This document shows positions 4,001-43,900 of a stretch of 64,000 nt of DNA, piece by piece. The stretch is from Trileptium ribeirensis (taxonomy: Eukaryota; Nematoda; Enoplea; Enoplida; Thoracostomopsidae). A program made the translations under genes and the position numbers. The first letter of the stretch is position 1. Each line of letters starts with the position of its first letter. Location of the stretch: the NCBI GenBank assembly GCA_030248225.1, contig JASANE010012823.1, positions 106,886 to 170,885 on the forward strand. The letters are read 5' to 3'. A model generated the notes under the pieces. It was not told where the DNA came from and did no database searches. It saw only the letters and a program-made list of their open reading frames with translations.

Positions 4001-7000
4001 GAAAGAAGTTGGTAATATGTGGTTAACCGGAGGAGGCCAAAATTTAGCAAGCAGACATGAACCGATGGGCATCTGTTCAGAACCAGGGGGAACGAAAAAA
4101 TACCAAGTCCTCCAAGTTAGAGAGCACAGGTTAATGGTATATATAGCAGAAAAGACAAACAATACCCTGAACACAAATAATAACGACAATGATATACATG
4201 CCTGGAAAAAATAGCAAAATTATGATGCACGACATGTAATATATAAATGCTCCGATTTTATCAGACAAAATTGAAATTCTAGAACTTACCCGGACGAAGG
4301 GACCCTTCATATAATTACAAAAAGAACAGTACTTAGAGCAGTTGGGTCAAGCGCAACAGCCAGTGGCACATCATCCTAACTTACCATCTATACGAACCAC
4401 ACGTTTATTTACACATAATTTTCCAGCCAAGCCAAATAATTATAGTTCTCGACAAAATGATTATATATGCGCAGAGACTCGTTCTTGATTTCATTGGACA
4501 AACGAAATCTTTTCCAGATGAATCTTCGGTTTTCGCACAGATTCCCCGGTTTAGGTATCAACTTTCCCGTTTCTCCATCTTTCTATCCACTTATATACGG
4601 TTTGTGAGAACCTTGTGGATATGGATAGAACATAGATGGTAATAGGGGCAGTGGGTTACTTCCAAAGGGTCGGACCCCCAGCTACTCCCCTCCGGGTGGT
4701 GCGCCACTGGCGGGAGCCCCCGACTTAGGCTAAAAAATGTAACTCACCTACCAATGTTTTGCTAAAACGGTGCCCTATATTCCCGATTTCGCGAAGTCGC
4801 AAAAGTTTGTCCACGCCTAGTACGAGGCCGTGGTAATACCAAAACTTGAACTGAAGAGTGTCTGACCCGCAGGAAATATAAGTACCCATGCAACGTAGTC
4901 TAAAGGCGTGTTCACACGCTCACTTTTTGCTCAAATTTTGATCAAAATTTGAAAGCATCTTTTTTGCTTTTTTGGTAAGCTTGAACGTGTGAACACTGTT
5001 CAAACTTTTCAAGAATACTCCTGTAACCAATCATGGACGAGAGGTATTACGTGAAAAAGTTTCAGCTCAAATTTTGAAATATTGCCTTTTTTCTTTAAAA
5101 ATTACTGTCAAATTTTGATCAAAATTTGCTCAAATTCTGAGCAAAAAGTTTGAGCGTGTGAACACGCCTTAACAAATGTCGACCCTGGAAAAAAGCTTGT
5201 TTTACGCCTCTGGACTGAGCATACCGAAAACGGTATAGCATGCATTTCACTCCGAAGTCACATTGGCGCAATTACTGTGTGTACTCATGAACATATCATA
5301 ACATACTGCGTCAAATCGAATGTGCTTACAAAGCTTGGAGCGTAGAATACACACGTTCGCTCTATCTCCAGTCGCCTACCTTTACTACAGATAGGTTTGT
5401 TGCATGTTCTTCTGTAGAAAACTTAAAATTATTGGTTTATATGATTCTAAGAGAAAATAATAGATAAAAGGTAATTTTCTGAGCAGTGGTCAGAGACACT
5501 GTTTAGGCTAGCGTTGGACAAACAGTGCGCGTCAGTTAGATCACAATGTTGATAACTTTATAATCAGAATGGTATAAATGAGAAACACCGTGATGCTGCT
5601 GGCACAGTTTAAATAAATACAGTTCATTGCCAAGAAAGCAGTTTCTAGCTGCGTTGCAGATAAAGTTAGTTTACTTCAATTTAGACTGATTTACCAAGTT
5701 TACAAGCGCACTGGCGGGTGCCTGACGCAATCTATGTTAGCCAAGCATACCCTAAGTACTTCTGCGTAAGCCATACTCTGTTACCGAGTTGGACCGGTTT
5801 AATTCAAACGTATCCCACAGACGTCTGGATGTGTAAAATAGCTGCTACAAGCATCGACCTGGCTTTGATTTAACAAACTCCTGCAGGTTATTATGAAAAA
5901 TTCCTGCTCAAATTATGTGTCCTACTTACGTTTCACACGGCAAATTGGTTAGTTAATCTTTTCTTTTGCTTGGTTGTATTGGAGCTTGATCATTGTATAA
6001 TATATATTACATATGTTTGGATTACAGGATGAATCAAAAAACGTGGAAAATTTCAAACAAAATTTTTAAACCGGTATTGCGGTTCCGGTATGGGTTTTGC
6101 CCCTTGCCGGAACCGCAGCCGGAACCGGAATCCCGGTTACTCCCTGACCCCCATGGTTAAACTGAGGTCTCCGTCTCAGGTTGCTTGGCAAAATCAGCGC
6201 ACCCCCGGTGCCTCCAACCGTCCTTGCTCATAGCATCGTGCTTAATTTGGACACGTTGACAGCAAAACTCCAGTGGGAGCTTGGAACGCAAATATGTTTT
6301 CGGAAACTCTTAAAACTCGTATATATCTCTCAATGCACTTGAAATGTAATAGACACCTATAAACCAGGCGTAAATGGAGGCGTTCACTCCCTTTCTATTT
6401 TATCCATTAGCTTCCTGTATCTAATTTAATACTATCTGTGTTGCTAAATTTCCAGCGCATAGTACGATCAATTTCTATATAAGTACAATCTTTATCTTTA
6501 TGTGAGTATGGACAATGCATAACAGTTCTATGTAATAAGGCTGGCTTGACCGGTAATAAACTATGTTGTTGTTATAATCCACGGCTATTTCAGGTGGGGC
6601 CATACCAATTTTGTGTTGAAAGGTGTACCAGTTATTTACGTTTAATTATACCGTTCCCAATTACTTATACAACATCCAGGGCGTTATTTGTAAAGTCTCT
6701 GACCTCTAGCAACACGCTGAACCGCTCGATAAACCAGAGACAGCTCGCCGAAAAGGGGCCGGTCCTCCAACTTAATAACCACACTCAGGCAATTTTCATT
6801 CCTTTGGAGGTACAGAGAGCAACATTTTGGTATCCGCCCTAAATCCCCATAACTCTGCTCGTTGAAAATATTAGTGTATTTATTACGATCGAAAGCGGGA
6901 TAATTTATATCAGCCCAAAAAATTTGTGCCCTGCCGAAAGGAGGGCTGGCGAACGCAGGGCCCCCACCCCTATATCTATATAAAAAACTGTAAGTGCGGA

Positions 7001-15300: not shown

Positions 15301-15672
15301 GCAACTATCGTTGGCCTTTAGTGCACTACATTCGAGGAAAATAATACAGAATTTTTGTGCCAAATCCCACAGCTTTATAGAGATGTATCACCCAACCAAT
15401 TGCTCGCTTATGCCATTTTTCCGCAAAAAAATAGTCAACTAGCTGTGCCTTTTGTGACTTTTGGCTTTGTTCAAGCTGAAGTTTGCGACGCCGACGGTCC
15501 AAACAAATTTTTGTTTGTTTCCGCAGTATAATGACAGTTGATTACATAGCCAAGCATGAAGATACTGTTTCTGGTTTTTTTGTTGTTTTTCTTTTTTGTT
15601 TGTCTTTTTTCAGTTATTCAAGACTAATAATTTGTATGGTAGTTGGGAATTTGCCGATATAGGCGCTTAGTA
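15301..15672 (+). mobile_element. CCCAACTA-family element, uninterrupted copy
   Basis: About 370 bp, one of three copies in the window. Shared landmarks in order are CAACTA at the start, CCACAGCTTT, TTTCCGCAAA, GAAGTTTGCG...GACGGTCCAAAC, ACATAGCCAAGCATGAA, GTAGTTGGGAATTTG, and the terminal AGGCGCTTAGTA. The inverted ends CCCAACTA/TAGTTGGG are clearest in the 17983 copy. It encodes nothing. It is the reference for the 29036 copy, which carries an extra kilobase. Confidence 0.7.
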
Positions 15673-23100: not shown

Positions 23101-24359
23101 TAGGCATATGTGCTCACCGAGCGGCGTAAAGGGTTTACCTTGCCAATGGTATTCCCAAAAGCCCCTTCTCTGAGAAAAATTCTACCTATCATGAGCAAAA
23201 TTACAAAATTATGACAAAAAATTGTGGAAAATACGTACAATTATGGGGAAAAGCCATGAAGCTTGTGGAAAATTCTTCCTATCATGAGCAAAATTACAAA
23301 ATTATGACAAAAAATTGTGGAAAATACGTACAATTATGGGGAAAAGCCATGAAGCTTGTGGAAAATTCTTCCTATCATGAGCAAAATTACAAAATTATGA
23401 CAAAAAATTGTGGAAAATACGTACAATTATGGGGAAAAGCCATGAAGCTTGTGGAAAATTCTTCCTATCATGAGCAAAATTACAAAATTATGACAAAAAA
23501 TTGTGGAAAATACGTACAATTATGGGGAAAAGCCATGAAGCTTGTGGAAAATTCTTCCTATCATGAGCAAAATTACAAAATTATGACAAAAAATTGTGGA
23601 AAATACGTACAATTATGGGGAAAAGCCATGAAGCTTGTGGAAAATTCTTCCTATCATGAGCAAAATTACAAAATTATGACAAAAAATTGTGGAAAATACG
23701 TACAATTATGGGGAAAAGCCATGAAGCTTGTGGAAAATTCTTCGTTTGCCTGGCTCACTTCTCTCACTCCTACCGCAACCACCACGCCCCTAACCGATCG
23801 ATCTTGTGCAATTATGATTAAATAAATATAAGTTCGAACGTCCATTTAGTTCCAGATCAGACGTATATCTTAATTTTTAGAAAAAACTCTATTATGGTCC
23901 ATTGCTTTTCCTCACAGGCATTGAAAGTGTTTGATGCGCTTGTGTCTAATTAAAGGCAAAAGTATTTATATGAAAAATTGTATCACATCGCAATTTGTGT
24001 ACTTAATCCTAAAACTTAGTGAAATAATGATTTCGAATAGATTTTTAAGAAAATAACTACAAAACGAAAATTCAAACGGGTCAAAAACATCAATTTGCTG
24101 TAAACATAACCTTACCTCCTTTCACGTGTCCAACTACAGGGACACCATTGATAAACCCATTCATTTCGTCCACAAATTCAATCTGGGTTGCTTTAGCTGA
24201 TGCTCTGTTACCACGTGCTGCCTCAACCGCTGAGCGCAACTGAGAAACAATTGGGCATCGCTTTGAGAAATTTTCTTGAGTAGTTTTTGCGCCAGCGCTG
24301 TCTTGTCCGATCCATTGGACAAGAGATTTTATTTGGGATGCCACCGGAACAGCATCCAT
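19090..24359 (-). CDS. Uncharacterised animal protein with glycine-zipper-like segment, 490 aa
   Basis: Coding sequence join(19090..20147, 20803..20973, 24116..24359) on the complement. All junctions are GT/AG and phase 1, and joining restores uninterrupted sequence. The N-terminal ~170 residues resemble an uncharacterised animal family I know only by pattern: ...QDSAGAKTTQENFSKRCP, GVPVVGHVKGG, HYATGNRSAGD, a Gly/Ala/Val-rich segment with many GxxxG steps (GGVVGGLVGGPVAAVAGG), then DGITTG and HKDFRPSGLV. The Gly-rich segment could pack against or insert into a membrane; that is inference. The remaining ~300 residues are Ser/Thr/Asn-rich, low complexity, with a Ser run near ASSSSSSWGHF. There is no signal peptide and no catalytic motif. 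The start ATG at 24359 is chosen because no splice acceptor precedes it. The end is ambiguous: the stop overlaps a consensus donor (CT|GTAAGTAT), so an isoform could splice past it. Function unknown. Confidence 0.8.
20148..20802 (-). other. Intron 2 of the 490-aa gene
   Basis: 655 bp. Contains a G-rich minisatellite at about 20550-20650 and otherwise nothing recognised. Minus-strand frames over it are repeat translations. Confidence 0.7.
20550..20652 (+). repeat. G-rich ~35-bp minisatellite, three copies
   Basis: Three diverged units around GTCGGGCACTGAAATGTTGG, beginning near 20556, 20591 and 20627, separated by G-rich spacers. Confidence 0.65.
20803..20973 (-). CDS. 490-aa gene, exon 2 (glycine-zipper segment)
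   Basis: 57 codons, phase 1 at both ends. The acceptor is GAGTTTCAG|TG at 20974/20973 and the donor is ACTACAG|GTATTT at 20803/20802. Encodes HYATGNRSAGD through DGITTG, including the Gly/Ala/Val segment. Confidence 0.8.
22160..22230. repeat. Dispersed repeat with C-rich core, copy 2
   Basis: Partner of 9300-9380: TGTAAACGGCC, a C-rich core, CCACTTTTGA, then ACGACCCTG in the same order. Confidence 0.55.
23186..23740 (+). repeat. 93-bp satellite, six near-identical copies
   Basis: The unit includes CCTATCATGAGCAAAATTAC and ATGGGGAAAAGCCATGAAGC. Copies repeat exactly every 93 bp, with ATGACAAAAA at 23211, 23304, 23397, 23490, 23583 and 23676. Because 93 is a multiple of three and one frame lacks stops, the array reads as six 31-residue repeats (MTKNCGKYVQLW...) in a 204-aa frame ending at 23825. 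It lies inside an antisense intron and has no homology I recognise. The perfect identity implies very recent expansion. Confidence 0.85.
24116..24359 (-). CDS. 490-aa gene, exon 1
   Basis: Encodes residues 1-81 (MDAVPVASQIKSLVQWIG... to GHVKGG). The donor is AAAGGAG|GTAAGG at 24116/24115. The first 11 codons are duplicated upstream at about 24505-24537. Confidence 0.8.
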
Positions 24360-26760: not shown

Positions 26761-27804
26761 CTAGACGCGATACATGTTTCCGATTTGGGAAATGAGTGCA
26801 CCGACAATATTTTCAGCAAATTGTCGTCGCCATTGAAATTCAATAAGGGTACGCTGGAATAGGCTATGAGGAACACCTTGGCGTCGCCGAATGAAGGTTT
26901 TCAAATTTCCCCAGAGACCATCAATGTTTTGCGTATGGGCGTCGGGATTGTCGGGATGAAGGAATTGGCGGTTATGGTGGTTGACCGTGGCGTGAGTATA
27001 TTGCTGGGGGCTAGGTAGGCGTTGCAGTCCTTGGATGTAGGTCTGGAAGCTGTCGGTGATGAGTCGGGTTCCCGGTCGGATATGTTGAAACATTACAGGC
27101 ATGATTGTGTTGATGGTGCAATTGGGGACGTGGAAAAGTAGACACTTGCCGTTTGTCGTTCAGTTATGCCCACCACCCATCCATGCTGACGACGTGGCAT
27201 GCCGCGGTTGTATTTTTGTCGATAAAACTTCGACTCGTCAACTTCTACGTCGATACCGGCGCCACCCAACATGCTGTTTTGCGAATGATCACGGTCGTAA
27301 GCCACAGCGACATCCCTACAGTAGTTTTACCAGTTCGTAATGGTATCTGTGGCGACCCCTGCTTGCAAGCGAATGAAATTTGACGGCAAGTTGTTGATAT
27401 TGCCGAAAATGATCACGAGTGTCGTTTCTAATGTGATCCGGTAACCGACAAAAAATGAGCCGCTTCAAATAGATAATTTGGCTCGGCAATTTTTACAGCG
27501 CCATTCGTACTTGTCAAGGCGCGCGAGGCATTACGCGCAGCCAAATACATCGCGTCGCCACATGTACATTGTTGGTTGTTAGCGGTAAGTCTCCATTGGG
27601 CAACAGAACAATAGTATCTTCATATGTACTTGTTCTACGCACAATTTGGTTATAGGTCATGCGTAAATTTTTAATATCAGGTTCAGGAAGTATAGTATAT
27701 ATTAACTGGCGAAATGTTAAATCTAGTATTTTGAGGTCTGCCACGTGCTGCCATAGCTTAATATTATACTGTAAAATATAAAAAAATGGAAAATAAATCA
27801 TCAA
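26761..27804 (-). pseudogene. Decayed Merlin transposase, second copy
   Basis: Nearly full-length but broken transposase of the IS1595/ISXO2-like (Merlin) family, distinct from the 12.9 kb remnant. Reading 5' to 3' on the minus strand: an N-terminal region from about 27804 (LDLTFRQLIYTIL), a zinc-ribbon-like piece (KYEWRCKNC), GSFF, RDVAVAYDRD, the catalytic start VDESKFYRQKYNRG...GWVVGITER, then PGTRLITDSFQTY, ATVNHH, and IDGLWGNLKTFIRRRQG...IEFQWR. Lesions are frameshifts near 27520 and 27147 (single-base loss after QT) and in-frame stops before GSFF and after the NW of the helix-turn-helix. The final 113 codons are intact, ending at 26761. I found no matching terminal repeats. It is also flanked by stubs of the 18-bp satellite. 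Confidence 0.85.
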
Positions 27805-29035: not shown

Positions 29036-30419
29036 GACTACTGTTGGGCCCTAAATTCGATAAAAATACGCAATTTCTGCAACAAATCCACAGCTTTTAT
29101 ATAAAGGAAACAAAACCCATTACACTATTTTGCCGCAAAGATATAAACACCTATTTATGCCTTTTACTACGTTTGGCTACATGCAGCTGCAGTTTGCCAA
29201 AACGATGGTCCAAACCAATTTCTTATCGTGTGCATTATAATACTGTAGATGTAAAAAGGCGCAAGCCACCCAACCAAAAAACACAAGACACAACGACAGC
29301 CGAACCAAAAAGAAAACCAAACCACCCGACAAACGAACCCAACCCCCCCAACCCAAAAAAACGAACCAGGACCCCCAAGAGGAAACAAGAGCACGAAACG
29401 GAGGCCAAGAAGCCGAAAACGCAAAAAACAACACCACGCCAACCAAAAAAAAAAAAAGCGACCCCGCCACCGAACCGGCCCAGGAGCAGGACGAGGACCG
29501 GACCAGCGGCGCACCCACCGAAAACCGAAAAAGAGGAAAACAAAACAAAAAAAAAAAAACAAAACCACCGACGGGGGCCGAAAAGCGACAACCCAGGAGG
29601 CGCGAACGGACCCGCAGCCGCGGCGCCACAAAAACCAAAGACGAGCCACCACGCCGGCGCCACACGCCGCCCGGGCCGCGCGCCAGACCGACGACGCGGG
29701 AGCGCCCGCCGCGCGAGGAGCAACACCCGAGAGGCCGGAACCCAAAACCCACAGGCCCGGGCACGCGAAACGGGCGAGACCCCGCGGAAAGAACCAGCGC
29801 GCACCCGCAGCAGACACGAGAAACCCGAACACCCCACCCCGCCAACCACCCAACCAACAGCACCCCACCACCAACACAAGAGCGCACCAAGCACCAACCA
29901 ACAACACGAGACCCAACCACAGCCGAAAACCCAACAGACGCCACACGCACATCAAAACACGCGCGCCAAACCCGGAACAAGCCACACCACACAAACCACA
30001 AAAATGGCCCACCAACAACAACCACCACCAAACATCCTCTCACCCAATAACAATATTAACAAAATAACTACACAGTGATGCCCGCATCCACCTCTCCCCA
30101 TCCCATCTATCTCAAAGACAATAAAAATAAACAAACACACCCAACTCAACACCCCACACAAAAAACATAACCTCCAGCCACAACTACCACAACCAAAAAA
30201 AAAATCCAAACAACCCCAAAACAAAAACAAAAAAACAACCCAATCAAAATCAACCTGGCGTCTAGTATAAAGGCACAACTAGGAAAATTACATAGCCAAG
30301 CATGAAAATTTCGATTCTACTTTTGCTTATATTTCCTTTATCTTTCTCGTTTTTTAAATTATCATTAAAGTGCAACAATGTTTCCGGTAGTTGAGATTTG
30401 TCGACCTAGGCGCTTAGTA
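29036..30419 (+). mobile_element. CCCAACTA-family element split by a 1-kb insertion
   Basis: The left part (29036 to about 29245) keeps CCACAGCTTT, TTTGCCGCAAA, TACGTTTGGCTACATG and TGGTCCAAACCAATTT. The right part (about 30255-30419) keeps TTACATAGCCAAGCATGAA, GTAGTTGAGATTTG and CCTAGGCGCTTAGTA. The copies at 15301 and 17983 have these halves adjacent, so about 1.0 kb was added here. Confidence 0.7.
29253..29951. other. 699 bp without any T (plus strand)
   Basis: Read base by base, no T occurs from 29253 to 29951. T is then sparse (about 29 in 303) to about 30254. The block is not a tandem repeat. Composition drifts from A/C-rich (29260-29450) to G/C-rich (29580-29810) and back to A/C-rich. 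The surrounding genome is roughly 30% T. Lack of T removes all stop codons on the plus strand, and lack of A removes them on the minus strand, so open frames of 220-344 codons here are expected and carry no weight. Either a real, highly strand-asymmetric insertion or a sequence/assembly error. Confidence 0.9.
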
Positions 30420-34204: not shown

Positions 34205-34910
34205 TTCAGATTTTACATTTCAGCTAAACCACATTTCTTGCGACTCTTTGGTTTCACAAAACCCGTTATATTTTACGCAATACACGCGCCATGCTCTTGA
34301 TTATTGAATTTCATGTCCCGATTTCAGATTTTACATGCAGCTAAACCATATTTGTTGAGTCTCTTTGGTTTCATAAAACCGGTTATATTTTACGCAATAC
34401 ACGCTCCATGCTCTTGATTATTGAATTTCATGTCCAGATTTCAGATTTTCCGTGCAGGTAAACCACATTTGTTGGGTCTCTTCGGTTTCACAAAACCCGT
34501 TATATTTTACGCAATACACGCGCCATGCTCTTGATTATTGAATTTCATGTCCCGATTTCAGATTTTACATGCAGCTAAACCATATTTGTTGAGTCTCTTT
34601 GGTTTCATAAAACCGGTTATATTTTACGCAATACACGCTCCATGCTCTTGATTATTGAATTTCATGTCCAGATTTCAGATTTTCCGTGCAGGTAAACCAC
34701 ATTTGTTGGGTCTCTTCGGTTTCACAAAACCCGTTATATTTTACGCAATACACGCGCCATGCTCTTGATTATTTAATTTCATGTCCAGATTTCAGATTTT
34801 ACATGCAGGTAAACCACATTTGTTGAGACTCATCGGTTTCGTGATACACATATTTTGTTCAATACATGCGTCATGGTTTTTACTATTAAATTTTATGTCC
34901 AGTTTTTAGA
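34205..34910 (+). repeat. 117-bp satellite, about six copies in a dimer pattern
   Basis: ATGCTCTTGATTATT recurs every 117 bp (34291, 34408, 34525, 34642, 34759). Alternating units share private variants (CACGCGCC versus CACGCTCC, TACATGCAGCTAA versus CCGTGCAGGTAA), giving a 234-bp higher-order unit. The last copy is degenerate. Confidence 0.85.
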
Positions 34911-37444: not shown

Positions 37445-39384
37445 CTGTTCGCGTAAGACATTCTTTAGCGTGCGGTGTAAACATTCGGTTCGACTGCGGA
37501 TGGTGCGCCGTTGTACGTTGCCATTTGATACCTAACTTCGACATTTGGTTGTTCCATAAGACAGTTTCAATTTGCGCTCCGTGGTCGGTGAAAATGATTT
37601 GAGAAATACCAAAACGCGATATCCGTACATTGGCGAGGGTGTCAACAATAGTAGACGCTGAAATTTCGCTAACGGGATAGAGTTTGGTACCTTCGAGAGT
37701 ACCGAACGATCATCATGACAATATACCGCTTATCATCGCTTATCGGTTCAGAGTTAACGATGTTGTCTCATCTGCAGCGACTCGATTAAGATATTGTATG
37801 GCAGCTGATTTTCGCGGCTTTGTAGTCGTTGCAAGTTTTAATCATATTGCAAATGTCTTTTTTCAGGCTCGGCCAGTGATACGACTGGATAATAACAGCG
37901 AACACTGGCGCGTAGACTGCATGCGAATGTCCGTGGAACAAGGCAAACACGTATTTTTCGGCAGGAATGAACGATTCCTGTCGTCGTACAATTTTTGTCT
38001 GCTGTTGATAGACGTTCGTCGGATCGATCTGAGGTTTTGAAAAACGTTTGCAGGTATTGATCACCGTATTGGGCATCCGTGTTGTCGTCGATCGTAGGCT
38101 TTCCTTGGCCTGTAGCAACCATTGTTCGCAATAGAAGTGGGCGACTGGGTGACCATGTTTTCTTTACAAGCAACGTGCCGAGTCGTAGCATCGAATTCGG
38201 AGATATGCGATAACAATCGGCGCTGTTGGTGACTGGAATTGTTCATACTGAAGCAACAGACCAGCGGTTTGTGATCTGTGTATACATTTCCTGGATGATA
38301 AATGACGCAGAAGGAACGTTTGAGGATGAGAAAAAAAAATGCAAGCAATTCACTGTCGAACAAGGACTGCTTTCGTTAATTGTCGCTGAAATTTCTTGAA
38401 AAGAAGACGATTTGGCGCAAGTCGCAGTTGAGAATTTGATGCACAACTGCACCAGATTTGTAGAGATGCATCACAACATGAGCGCTACGTTGCGGATAAC
38501 CGTGGATCGGACGCATTAAGACCTGCTGCTTTAAAGTGCGGAATGAAGTTTAGGCATTATCGGACCATTCGGTTTATGCTGGCTTTGAACCTTTATTCGA
38601 TCCTTTATTCGATTTCGCCGGTTTCGTCAGATCGGTGAGCGATGCGGTGCCATTGGTGAATCTACAGAGTACGACCAATCGTCGCTACTCTCTGAGTGTT
38701 ATTTGCTGCGGGAGTTGATTCATAGCCTCGATATCGTGAGCCAATGAGCGGATTCTAGCCTTTGAGATGTTGACTGTCGGCTTGAAGAATACGCATTTGG
38801 GTTGTTTGAGTTTGAGTTCATTTTTGTCAAGACGTTCGAAACCACGGTTGAGAGGATAGCGATGTTCGCCATCGGTAACACTTGCTCCGAGAATATCGTC
38901 GGTATACATTTTAGCTAGCATGCCGCGGAATGTGTGATCCATAAGGCCCTAAAACGTTTGCGACGTGTTTCGCAGACAAAGTAGGATGTGTTGGTAGAGG
39001 AACATGCCGAATGAAGTTGTGATGGCCGTGTTTTCGACATATTTAGGTGCTATCGGAGTCTGATGGAACTTTTTGACGTAGTCCTACTTGCTGAAGACTC
39101 GACTAAAATATAGTTCGTTGAGTTTCGGCATCGGATAATGATTGAACTTGGTTTGCGGAGAGTTTGCGCGTTGACACCGTTGGTTGGCACCGATTGGGTG
39201 TTGTCGTTGTTCCCGAATCGCCGTTAGCCTTCCGATGAATACCAGCGTGCCCGGGAGAGCCATTGATGAGCCGTAGATACACATGTTGGTACCTGAAATA
39301 GTTGTTTATTTTCCTCGCTGAACGCTCTATTCCCGAAATCATTGCTTCAGCTCGACTTGTGGTTCCCGCTCCATTGTTTGACAA
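37445..39384 (-). pseudogene. Gypsy-type LTR retrotransposon pol relic
   Basis: Fragment of a Ty3/Gypsy-like polyprotein, read 5' to 3' on the minus strand. It starts with reverse transcriptase (FSRVFSK, NTAITTSFGMF, the active-site box YTDDIL at about 38900, ELKLKQPKCVFFK). RNase H follows (FDSELLAFF, YTDHKPLV, RRLLSHISEFD at about 38190-38350). Last come the integrase zinc-binding region (YHWPSLKKDI...C..C, about 37830-37880) and core (FTDHGAQIET, TTAHHPQSN, about 37480-37620). In-frame stops interrupt the RT, and frames change between RNase H and integrase and within the integrase core. Of the integrase D,D,E residues, only the middle Asp appears intact. No gag, protease or paired LTRs were found. 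Confidence 0.85.
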
Positions 39385-40944: not shown

Positions 40945-41672
40945 GATGTTTTCTATGAACACTTTCTGGGTCGAAGTTGGTACAATGAAGGTGGTCCATT
41001 TTTATGGCAAGGTCTGGAGTAAGGTTTACAGATTATGAACACTTTCTGGGTCGAAATTGGTACAATGAAGGTGGTCCATTTTTATGGCAAGGTTGGGGTA
41101 AGGGTTACAGATTATGAGCACTTTCTGGGTCGAAGTTGGTACAATGAAGGTGGTCCATTTTTATGGCAAGGTCTGGAGTAAGGTTTACAGATTATGAACA
41201 CTTTCTGGGTCGAAATTGGTACAATGAAGGTGGTCCATTTTTATGGCAAGGTTGGGGTAAGGGTTACAGATTATGAGCACTTTCTGGGTCGAAGTTGGTA
41301 CAATGAAGGTGGTCCATTTTTATGGCAAGGTCTGGAGTAAGGTTTACAGATTATGAACACTTTCTGGGTCTGAAATTGGTACAATGAAGGTGGTCCATTT
41401 TTATGGCAAGGTTGGGGTAAGGGTTACAGATTATGAGCACTTTCTGGGTCGAAGTTGGTACAATGAAGGTGGTCCATTTTTATGGCAAGGTCTGGAGTAA
41501 GGTTTACAGATTATGAACACTTTCTGGGTCGAAATTGGTACAATGAAGGTGGTCCATTTTTATGGCAAGGTTGGGGTAAGGGTTACAGATTATGAGCACT
41601 TTCTGGGTCGAAGTTGGTACAATGAAGGTGGTCCATTTTTATGGCATTGCCTGGAGTAAGATTTACAGATGA
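40945..41672 (+). repeat. 79/80-bp satellite, nine copies in 159-bp dimers
   Basis: TACAATGAAGGTGGTCCATT recurs at 40981, 41061, 41140, 41220, 41299, 41380, 41459, 41539 and 41618. Two unit types alternate: GAACACTTTCTGGGTCGAAATT with GGTTGGGGTAAGGGTT, and GAGCACTTTCTGGGTCGAAGTT with GGTCTGGAGTAAGGTT. It ends about 450 bp upstream of the 591-aa gene. Confidence 0.9.
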
Positions 41673-42124
41673 CGAATAGGGTCTTTAGACAATTAGCCTA
41701 CTATCCCGATTGCCCTGTAAAATTGTAGAGCAAATCTGAACAGGTGCGATTTGGATGGGTAAAAGTGTCCATTCATGTAGTGTGATCTGGACCTCTACAG
41801 ACATGCATGAATAAGACAGGCCTTTATCTAATGACGTTACTTCAATATTTTATAATATTCACAACGATAAACAATTGCCAAAAGTATAATGAATTAAGTG
41901 TCCATGATATTTGTTGTTAACAGACATTGTTCTTATAAGCTTTCATGATTTATTCATGAACCTAACTCTATTGATAGCTCTGCTTCAAATTCAAAATATG
42001 ATCATGATGTTTAATACAATGCTACATACTTTAACTTTAATGGTTTTAGATAAATATTGAAGCTGTATTAGCGAAAAAGAAAAGAAATAAAGAAAAAGAC
42101 AAGGTGAAATTCGATTTGGCCAAA

Positions 42125-43900
42125 ATGAGTAAATTCAGCTATGCCGAGACGGTGTCGAGACCAAAAACGATTCCGGAAAACGACGATAATACTAAGACGA
42201 CTAACGACGAATTAGCTGACAATGGCTCGACTAATTTCAACAATATTATTTTGGATCCAGAACCGGAAACGGATACCTGTGTCAAACCGACGTTCATCAA
42301 AAAACCGCTGTTACCAGACCCAGTTTCTCATCTAAATGGTGACACAAATAAGGCGCTTGAGGCTCAACTAGCGGCACTTAATACATCGGTTGTGGATGTG
42401 ACTTATCGATTAAACGAATTTCAGCTTCATATTAGTGAAATAAAATCAAAAATGAATCAAATAGCATCAGAATTTGGAATAAATCTCTCTGAAATTACAT
42501 CAACAGCTGCGCCCAATATTGCTTCAGCTACAGGTAGTACAGAAACTATGACTGCAACAAACGGTATAAAATTGCAGCAAGATGAAGATATGTTCGATGA
42601 TTGCTTTAAAGATATTGGATGTGCGTTAAATTTTGATGATCAAGTATCAGTTCAACAGCTGGAATATGTCGACGCTACAAATGAGGCGTCTAAGGAGCTG
42701 CAAGGAGACGACACTAAAGTAACAGCGACATATACGAACAAGTTTCTACAAGTTCCGGGAACTAAATCAAACAGTGGTGTCAGCGACAACAGTGAAAAGA
42801 AAGCAACTGAAATACTAAATTGTAATGGATACAATTACACCTCTCGAACACCGCTGTTAATGTCGCCAAGAGCAGGATTGTCAAGCCGTTTCAGGCCAGC
42901 TTTTATTGAGTCAGCGGTACGGCGCCATCAGTCACGTGGAATTTCTCGAAATAAATGGGCAAGTCTTCCGTCAACACCACTGTCTGTATCACCGATTCGG
43001 GAACACGAAGATGAAATGGGAGGAGATTCGGATAACCCATTTGCTGTGTTTTCACCTCCTGGGTTCCGTAACATAATCCGAGTTAACAATGCCGGACAAA
43101 CATATCATCGGCCGCTGTTTCGAAAGTTCCCTTTAGCAGTATCAGAGTACCGACAAAGAATATCTTCTAGTAACGATAGAGTTCAGTCCCAGAGTCGAAA
43201 TGATGCAAACATCCAAGCATTTGATCCAAGATTTCCGTGGCAATGCCAATCAGGTGCCCTCGGAGCAACCGTGCGTCGTCCACGTGCGTTCTCGTACAAT
43301 CCGAATCAGGTGGTGGGGATGACAATGGCTCAGCAAGCTACTCGACAACCACAGCTGTATCCCAATGCATCGTATAACATCCCAGTATCCGGAGGATATT
43401 ATAGCGAATGGTCTACTGTGGACAGTAATTCTGACGCAGTTCGCAGCCCCGGACTACCTAGAAAATCACCGTTGTCGCCTCCTGGTATTGTACTCTATGG
43501 AACAGGCAAGAGTAGCATAGGAGGGTCGTCTCAAAACAAAACGTCAGTCGAAAATAAATCAGAATCACAGCATAATGAAACTGAAAATTATACTAGCGTC
43601 CAAATAAGTCCAAATATTGCCGGAGAAGACAAAAATGACTCTGGTGTTTTTGGCGTTCCAACTGTGCGAAGAATTTTTGTAGGACATGTTGACAGCACAG
43701 TCACGCCAGAGCAACTGATCGATTTTTTGCAAGCTAAATCCGTTAAAGTCGTCGAAGTCCGTGAAACCACGCCGGCAGATATCGATACAAGTCGAGCATT
43801 TTTTCGAAATTTTGTTGTCACAGTCGAAAATCCGGACTATACAACGATGGCTGATCCATCATTTTGGCCAAAAAATGTTTATTGTAAACTCAAATGGTAA
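42125..43900 (+). CDS. 591-aa coiled-coil protein with C-terminal RRM-like (LINE ORF1-type) domain
   Basis: Uninterrupted frame from ATG at 42125 (MSKFSYAETVSRPKT) to TAA at 43898-43900. Residues ~75-117 form a coiled coil with heptad hydrophobics (LEAQLAALNTSVVDVTYRL...). Residues ~120-510 are disordered, Ser/Pro/Asn-rich, with basic RGISR-like stretches. Residues ~514-591 match an RRM-like fold, RRIFVGHVDSTVTPEQL...VKVVEV, closing with DPSFWPKNVYCKLKW. That WP-x-x-V ending is characteristic of RRM-like domains in ORF1 proteins of animal LINEs, so RNA binding is likely. I see no reverse transcriptase in the following 10 kb and no poly(A)-like tail, so it may be a lone ORF1 or a domesticated gene. 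The frame stays open upstream to 42050, right after ATGGTTTTAG, a plausible splice acceptor, so an upstream exon is possible. Function not established. Confidence 0.75.
   Translation: MSKFSYAETVSRPKTIPENDDNTKTTNDELADNGSTNFNNIILDPEPETDTCVKPTFIKKPLLPDPVSHLNGDTNKALEAQLAALNTSVVDVTYRLNEFQLHISEIKSKMNQIASEFGINLSEITSTAAPNIASATGSTETMTATNGIKLQQDEDMFDDCFKDIGCALNFDDQVSVQQLEYVDATNEASKELQGDDTKVTATYTNKFLQVPGTKSNSGVSDNSEKKATEILNCNGYNYTSRTPLLMSPRAGLSSRFRPAFIESAVRRHQSRGISRNKWASLPSTPLSVSPIREHEDEMGGDSDNPFAVFSPPGFRNIIRVNNAGQTYHRPLFRKFPLAVSEYRQRISSSNDRVQSQSRNDANIQAFDPRFPWQCQSGALGATVRRPRAFSYNPNQVVGMTMAQQATRQPQLYPNASYNIPVSGGYYSEWSTVDSNSDAVRSPGLPRKSPLSPPGIVLYGTGKSSIGGSSQNKTSVENKSESQHNETENYTSVQISPNIAGEDKNDSGVFGVPTVRRIFVGHVDSTVTPEQLIDFLQAKSVKVVEVRETTPADIDTSRAFFRNFVVTVENPDYTTMADPSFWPKNVYCKLKW

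Follow-up and report, generated by a model that had tools for sequence, protein, structure and literature searches.

A 699-nt block without T is a base-deleted copy of a Merlin-type transposon and very probably a data artefact

How can 699 consecutive nucleotides be free of T on one strand in DNA that contains 30.7% T overall? The question is raised by positions 29253-29951 (plus strand) of the window, that is, the whole 64-kb stretch analysed (contig C8484, 106886-170885). An earlier note on this DNA had pointed out the run and the T-poor sequence behind it, and had proposed either a genuine strand-asymmetric insertion or the dropout of bases in a single long read.

Composition of the block and its tail

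A run-length scan of the window gave exactly the 699 nt previously read at 29253-29951, and this is the longest T-free run of the window. With the block and its tail excluded, no T-free run exceeded 29 nt; for A-free runs, which correspond to T-free runs on the minus strand, the maximum was 47 nt (15565-15611). An independent-base model predicts a longest T-free run of about 27 nt in the window, and gives a probability of about 10^-106 for one of 699 nt anywhere in 64 kb. T reappears from 29952 but remains sparse up to 30256, close to the limit of about 30254 noted before, and the genome-like T content of about 30% assumed at that time is in line with the value measured for the window. The tail, 29952-30256, contains about 10% T and about 5% G and consists mostly of A and C. 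Its scarcity of G, absent from the earlier description, comes in addition to that of T: the window's three longest runs without G (79, 67 and 59 nt) are all inside it. A change-point fit placed the edges of the anomalous region at 29253, 30005 and 30309. With the alignments of the next section taken into account, the region is divided as follows.

29253-29951, plus strand: T-free run of 699 nt, read as a Merlin-type copy minus T and with G partly lost (run length, losses at equal gap costs, T-strip control)
29952-30256, plus strand: tail poor in T and G, read as the second arm of the same copy (composition, losses in 29701-30195, G+T stripping)
29266-30255, plus strand: stretch aligned to the transposon, positions 1152-2578 of copy L008 (score 780.5 versus 106.2 for the reversed query, base-specific gap costs)
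29253-29265, plus strand: left edge, 13 nt, T-free and unaligned to the element (alignment)
30256-30330, plus strand: right edge, with normal composition immediately (alignment)

Tandem Repeats Finder reported no array within 29253-30256, and among periods 2-12, the coding period 3 included, none was prominent in the block, in agreement with the earlier statement that it is not a tandem repeat. Long open reading frames (ORFs) cross the block on both strands, because stop codons need T on the plus strand and A (as read on the plus strand) on the minus strand. For the plus-strand ORF neither a Pfam family nor a homologue was found, and since the block also lacks a 3-base period, a gene was rejected as explanation. 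A search of the window for RNA families gave no match.

Models of composition did not decide between deletion and substitution of T. In Markov fits, pure T-to-C substitution (-1088.9) had a slight advantage over deletion of T alone (-1095.2), the best fits came from mixed models (-1064 to -1066), and deletion was not singled out. Runs of 13 A and of 7 C were more frequent in the block than in window sequence deleted of its T, which counts against deletion. The alignments, however, show deletion, and substitution in its place was rejected.

Alignment to a Merlin-type transposon

The assembly (687,459,628 bases in 20,229 contigs) was searched with the block, a check named in the earlier note, and other copies were indeed found, belonging to a Merlin-type transposon that does contain T. 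Besides the locus itself (100% identity), 23 of the 24 matches were elsewhere, limited to block positions 214-382 (window 29466-29634) or parts thereof. Targets matched by the whole of this 169-nt query part exceeded it in length by about 43 nt.

Judged from their sequences, the normal copies bear the marks of Merlin elements, namely a transposase domain, target duplications and inverted ends. They are 1.5-2.0 kb long, with inverted ends and 8-bp target duplications; copies L002-L008 are 94-99.7% alike across shared segments, and their common ends start with GGTTCTTTTCC. Exact 8-bp duplications are present in four of the five two-ended copies (L002, L003, L007 and L008) and absent in L004; L005 and L006, which have one end only, stand outside this count. 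In copy L007 the inverted ends measure about 358 bp, and a 323-aa protein with the DDE_Tnp_IS1595 domain (PF12762, 3.9e-18) is encoded at 1633-2601 on the minus strand. According to PMC8101967, Merlin elements have target duplications of 8 or 9 bp and inverted ends of 24-462 bp that start with GG. The GG ends, the 8-bp duplications (4/5), the ends of L007 and the DDE_Tnp_IS1595 transposase all resemble this superfamily. L008 is a variant, nearly one long inverted repeat, whose arms of about 760 bp lie outside the Merlin range. The copy in the window is unlike the superfamily in being devoid of T and of much of its G, and in its extremities: the first 21 nt of the element (L008 1131-1151) were not recognised at the left edge of the block, nor its last 67 nt (L008 2579-2645) at the right edge. 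About 2 kb from the block, 26764-27159 (minus strand) holds a fragment of another transposase of the DDE_Tnp_IS1595, Merlin-type family (1.7e-8).

Two gap schemes were used, with base-specific costs against L008, and with equal costs for all bases against L005 and L002. Over 29266-30255, the comparison to L008 gave losses of 357/385 T, 172/325 G, 24/385 A and 15/332 C. In another, base-by-base comparison of the block with L008, the bases facing gaps were 91 T, 14 G, 5 A and no C. At equal costs, 144/146 T, 30/112 G, 8/169 A and 6/132 C were lost relative to L005 (29307-29679), and 197/230 T, 148/222 G, 10/198 A and 14/212 C relative to L002 (29701-30195). The loss of G was uneven, with 19/30 in the first hundred bases, 3/26 and 4/29 in mid-block and 49/50 near the end, so that about 12% of G is missing in mid-block and 98% at the end of the tail, with A and C mostly retained. 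A strict order of loss T, G, C, A was rejected, for G (82/101) and T (97/119) were lost alike within 29953-30152. At the centre, 131 block bases are left unpartnered by L008, which is without part of the centre; when the same stretch was aligned to L007 reversed, 22 were.

Stripping of single bases singled out T. When T was removed from a normal copy, the alignment score was 492, versus 133 for the unstripped copy, and the controls with A, C or G removed scored 17, 24 and 31. For the second half, removal of G and T from both sequences gave 590 versus 40 unstripped; removal of T gave 192, of G 82, and of any other two bases together 50-108. Over all sequence compared, the top score was 494 for a genuine match and 50 for a reversed control; after G and T had been stripped, the two values were 494 and 197. 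With lenient costs, T-stripped alignments extended into unrelated flanks, and the alignments given above were used instead. At the level of sequence, the block is thus shown to be a T-deleted and partly G-deleted copy of a repeat from the same genome.

Alignment to the element begins 13 nt inside the T-free run and stops at 30255, one base short of the end of the tail. The only sequence common to both flanks of the copy is AAAGGC, and their local similarity (25) falls between the 90th and 99th percentile of 300 shuffles.

Other sources were tried. As to a T-deleted copy inside the window, the reversed control scored best among the matches listed, and comparison of the block with T-deleted flanks gave scores (34-44) that did not stand out from the controls, reversed (42-44) or shuffled (up to 49). 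A comparison of the tail within the window after stripping of G and T yielded many low E-values and is uninformative, because the alphabet is reduced to two letters. A 31-nt piece had no exact match in viral_contigs or genome_contigs, and block and tail together had no match in plasmids or phages.

Similar stretches elsewhere and their contig strand

Among a further 236,885 bases, from 24 stretches of contigs C8484, C11273 and C2948, two T-free runs of at least 50 nt were detected, in L020 and L026. The run of L020 (4592-4692, 101 nt), first counted as a further artefact, was dropped, as it sits in a natural repeat. That repeat (4500-4780, contig C11273) is abundant, with 1152 first-look candidates in the assembly, and its 101-nt T-free part is purine-rich; of its 42 matches, 27 extend across the full 281 nt, most being equal in length to within a few bases. 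No counterpart of L020 scored above reversed controls in all sequence compared.

L026 (6603-6885) is T-free and then passes into a G-poor part resembling the tail of the window. With L026 as query, the assembly yielded at least 69 matches in 40 contigs, with 40 of 108 candidates scored. Eight of these contigs were inspected, the query's own and seven of the 39 others, and contained T-free runs of 278-624 nt or, in L040 (minus strand), an A-free run of 389 nt. In the T-poor parts of the eight loci, survival relative to A was 0.21-1.00 for C, 0.01-0.19 for G and 0.00-0.06 for T, the T figure being low by choice because the parts were selected for low T, which leaves those for C and G unaffected. 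Over whole loci, the order of survival was A, C, G, T in seven of the eight, and in L034 T was slightly above G. Four loci (L034, L035, L038 and L039) include about 0.6-1.5 kb made almost solely of A and C, where C is scarce too. The tail of the window, used as query, retrieved one more similar place, on the plus strand of contig C13249. No undamaged counterpart of L026 exceeded reversed controls in all sequence compared. Deletion of bases is demonstrated by alignment only for the block of the window; the other loci show a similar composition.

The strand of these stretches was strongly biased. With the query's own contig excluded, the loss was on the plus strand in 37 of 39 contigs (binomial, 2.8e-9), whereas control sequences were found on both strands: the 23 Merlin matches away from the locus itself were 12 plus and 11 minus, and those of the natural L020 repeat 26 plus and 16 minus. 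Stretches of the same composition appear to recur, nearly always on the contig plus strand, as shown by similarity for the set as a whole and by inspection in seven of the 39 other contigs. The loss is bound to the contig strand, as expected of an assembly artefact produced in the contig frame.

Origin of the loss

An artefact is the most likely explanation because the loss tracks contig direction, which living DNA cannot know. We hold it as nearly certain that the block is an artefact of some kind, whether of consensus building or of the reads. It is not a new kind of DNA, but a data error laid over an ordinary transposon. The real DNA at the locus would most likely be an ordinary Merlin-type copy, and the full statement that we put forward, as a probable one, is that this copy was rendered faultily by a step acting in the contig frame, be it consensus building, polishing or gap filling. 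The fault may have arisen at a point where few reads could be placed uniquely in the repeat, as is suggested by damage that spans about the length of the repeat, with edges near those of the element. The step, working in contig orientation, would have dropped T and G, and this accounts for the strand bias. Repeat-sized poor sequence in an otherwise normal contig resembles the outcome of low-accuracy gap filling with long reads in draft assemblies (PMC8848313, PMC3504050); in contrast to the present case, the portions of these two papers used here describe lower identity in general, with no mention of base-specific loss.

Alternatively, one long read across the repeat may have lost its T and then much of its G signal, and been pasted into a gap of the contig; possible causes include the dimming of a colour channel and the skipping of bases while the inverted repeat folds. 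The loss grades along the block with no abrupt switch, and the uneven loss of G is explained in this way. Moreover, a raw solitary read is among the options that a gap closer can insert (PMC8848313), PacBio reads are known to suffer from long artefactual segments of low quality (PMC6304105), and inverted duplications make nanopore reads miss bases (PMC7229812). But since reads fall on either strand, A-free stretches would then be expected to be as common as T-free ones, and the plus-strand loss in 37/39 contigs goes against this, unless it is such reads that set the direction of the contigs. The nanopore case shares with ours an inverted repeat with missed bases; yet in PMC7229812 the loss sets in where the two arms meet, whereas here the first arm is also affected, the loss is base-selective and it follows the contig strand. 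Loss in a read is a possible cause, though a somewhat less probable one, and between the two our preference leans to the contig-frame step. Of the dropout suggested at the outset, the core thus stands, since the block is a normal transposon copy minus T and part of G; its attribution to a single long read fits the strand bias less well than a contig-frame fault.

That all T and much of the G truly disappeared from a genomic copy through a base-selective deletion process, such as the copying of an edited RNA into DNA, is highly improbable. Letter by letter, the copy does look base-selectively deleted, but similar stretches follow the direction of contigs, and on the same count of 37/39 other contigs the genuine strand-asymmetric insertion proposed earlier was not upheld. 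The U-deletion RNA editing of kinetoplastids, described for trypanosome mitochondria in PMC12266143, likewise generates sequences that differ by T/U only. It does not fit here because G was lost as well (30/112 and 148/222); the affected sequence, too, is different, being a transposon. Equally implausible is a natural low-complexity or T-free sequence in its own right: such runs occur in the genome, as in L020, but the notion is contradicted for this block by its match to a T-containing transposon after T stripping.

A search of the literature, covering titles and abstract openings, found no description of the loss of particular bases across a whole block. Users of the assembly should be aware that stretches devoid of T and G seem to be present in other contigs as well, where they give rise to spurious long ORFs, spurious proteins and spurious strand skew. 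A tally of base-free runs for each contig strand would be a cheap way to check other draft genomes for this fault.

As a whole, the window has a eukaryotic look, with few long ORFs, many tandem repeats and pieces of transposons. Protein searches meant to place the organism gave no result, and neither did searches of solved structures. Retrotransposon pieces are carried by neighbouring ORFs at 37789-38375 (minus strand), with matches to Integrase_H2C2 (8.9e-8) and RT_RNaseH (1.1e-4, below the curated cut-off). An open frame of 616 codons with a strong 3-base period lies at 42050-43897 (plus strand); no Pfam family, solved structure or homologue was found for it. Tandem arrays were located at 23176-23743 (period 93), 34205-34840 (period 117) and 40954-41670 (period 80/159), and in the last of these the 159-bp period may represent a higher-order repeat of two units.
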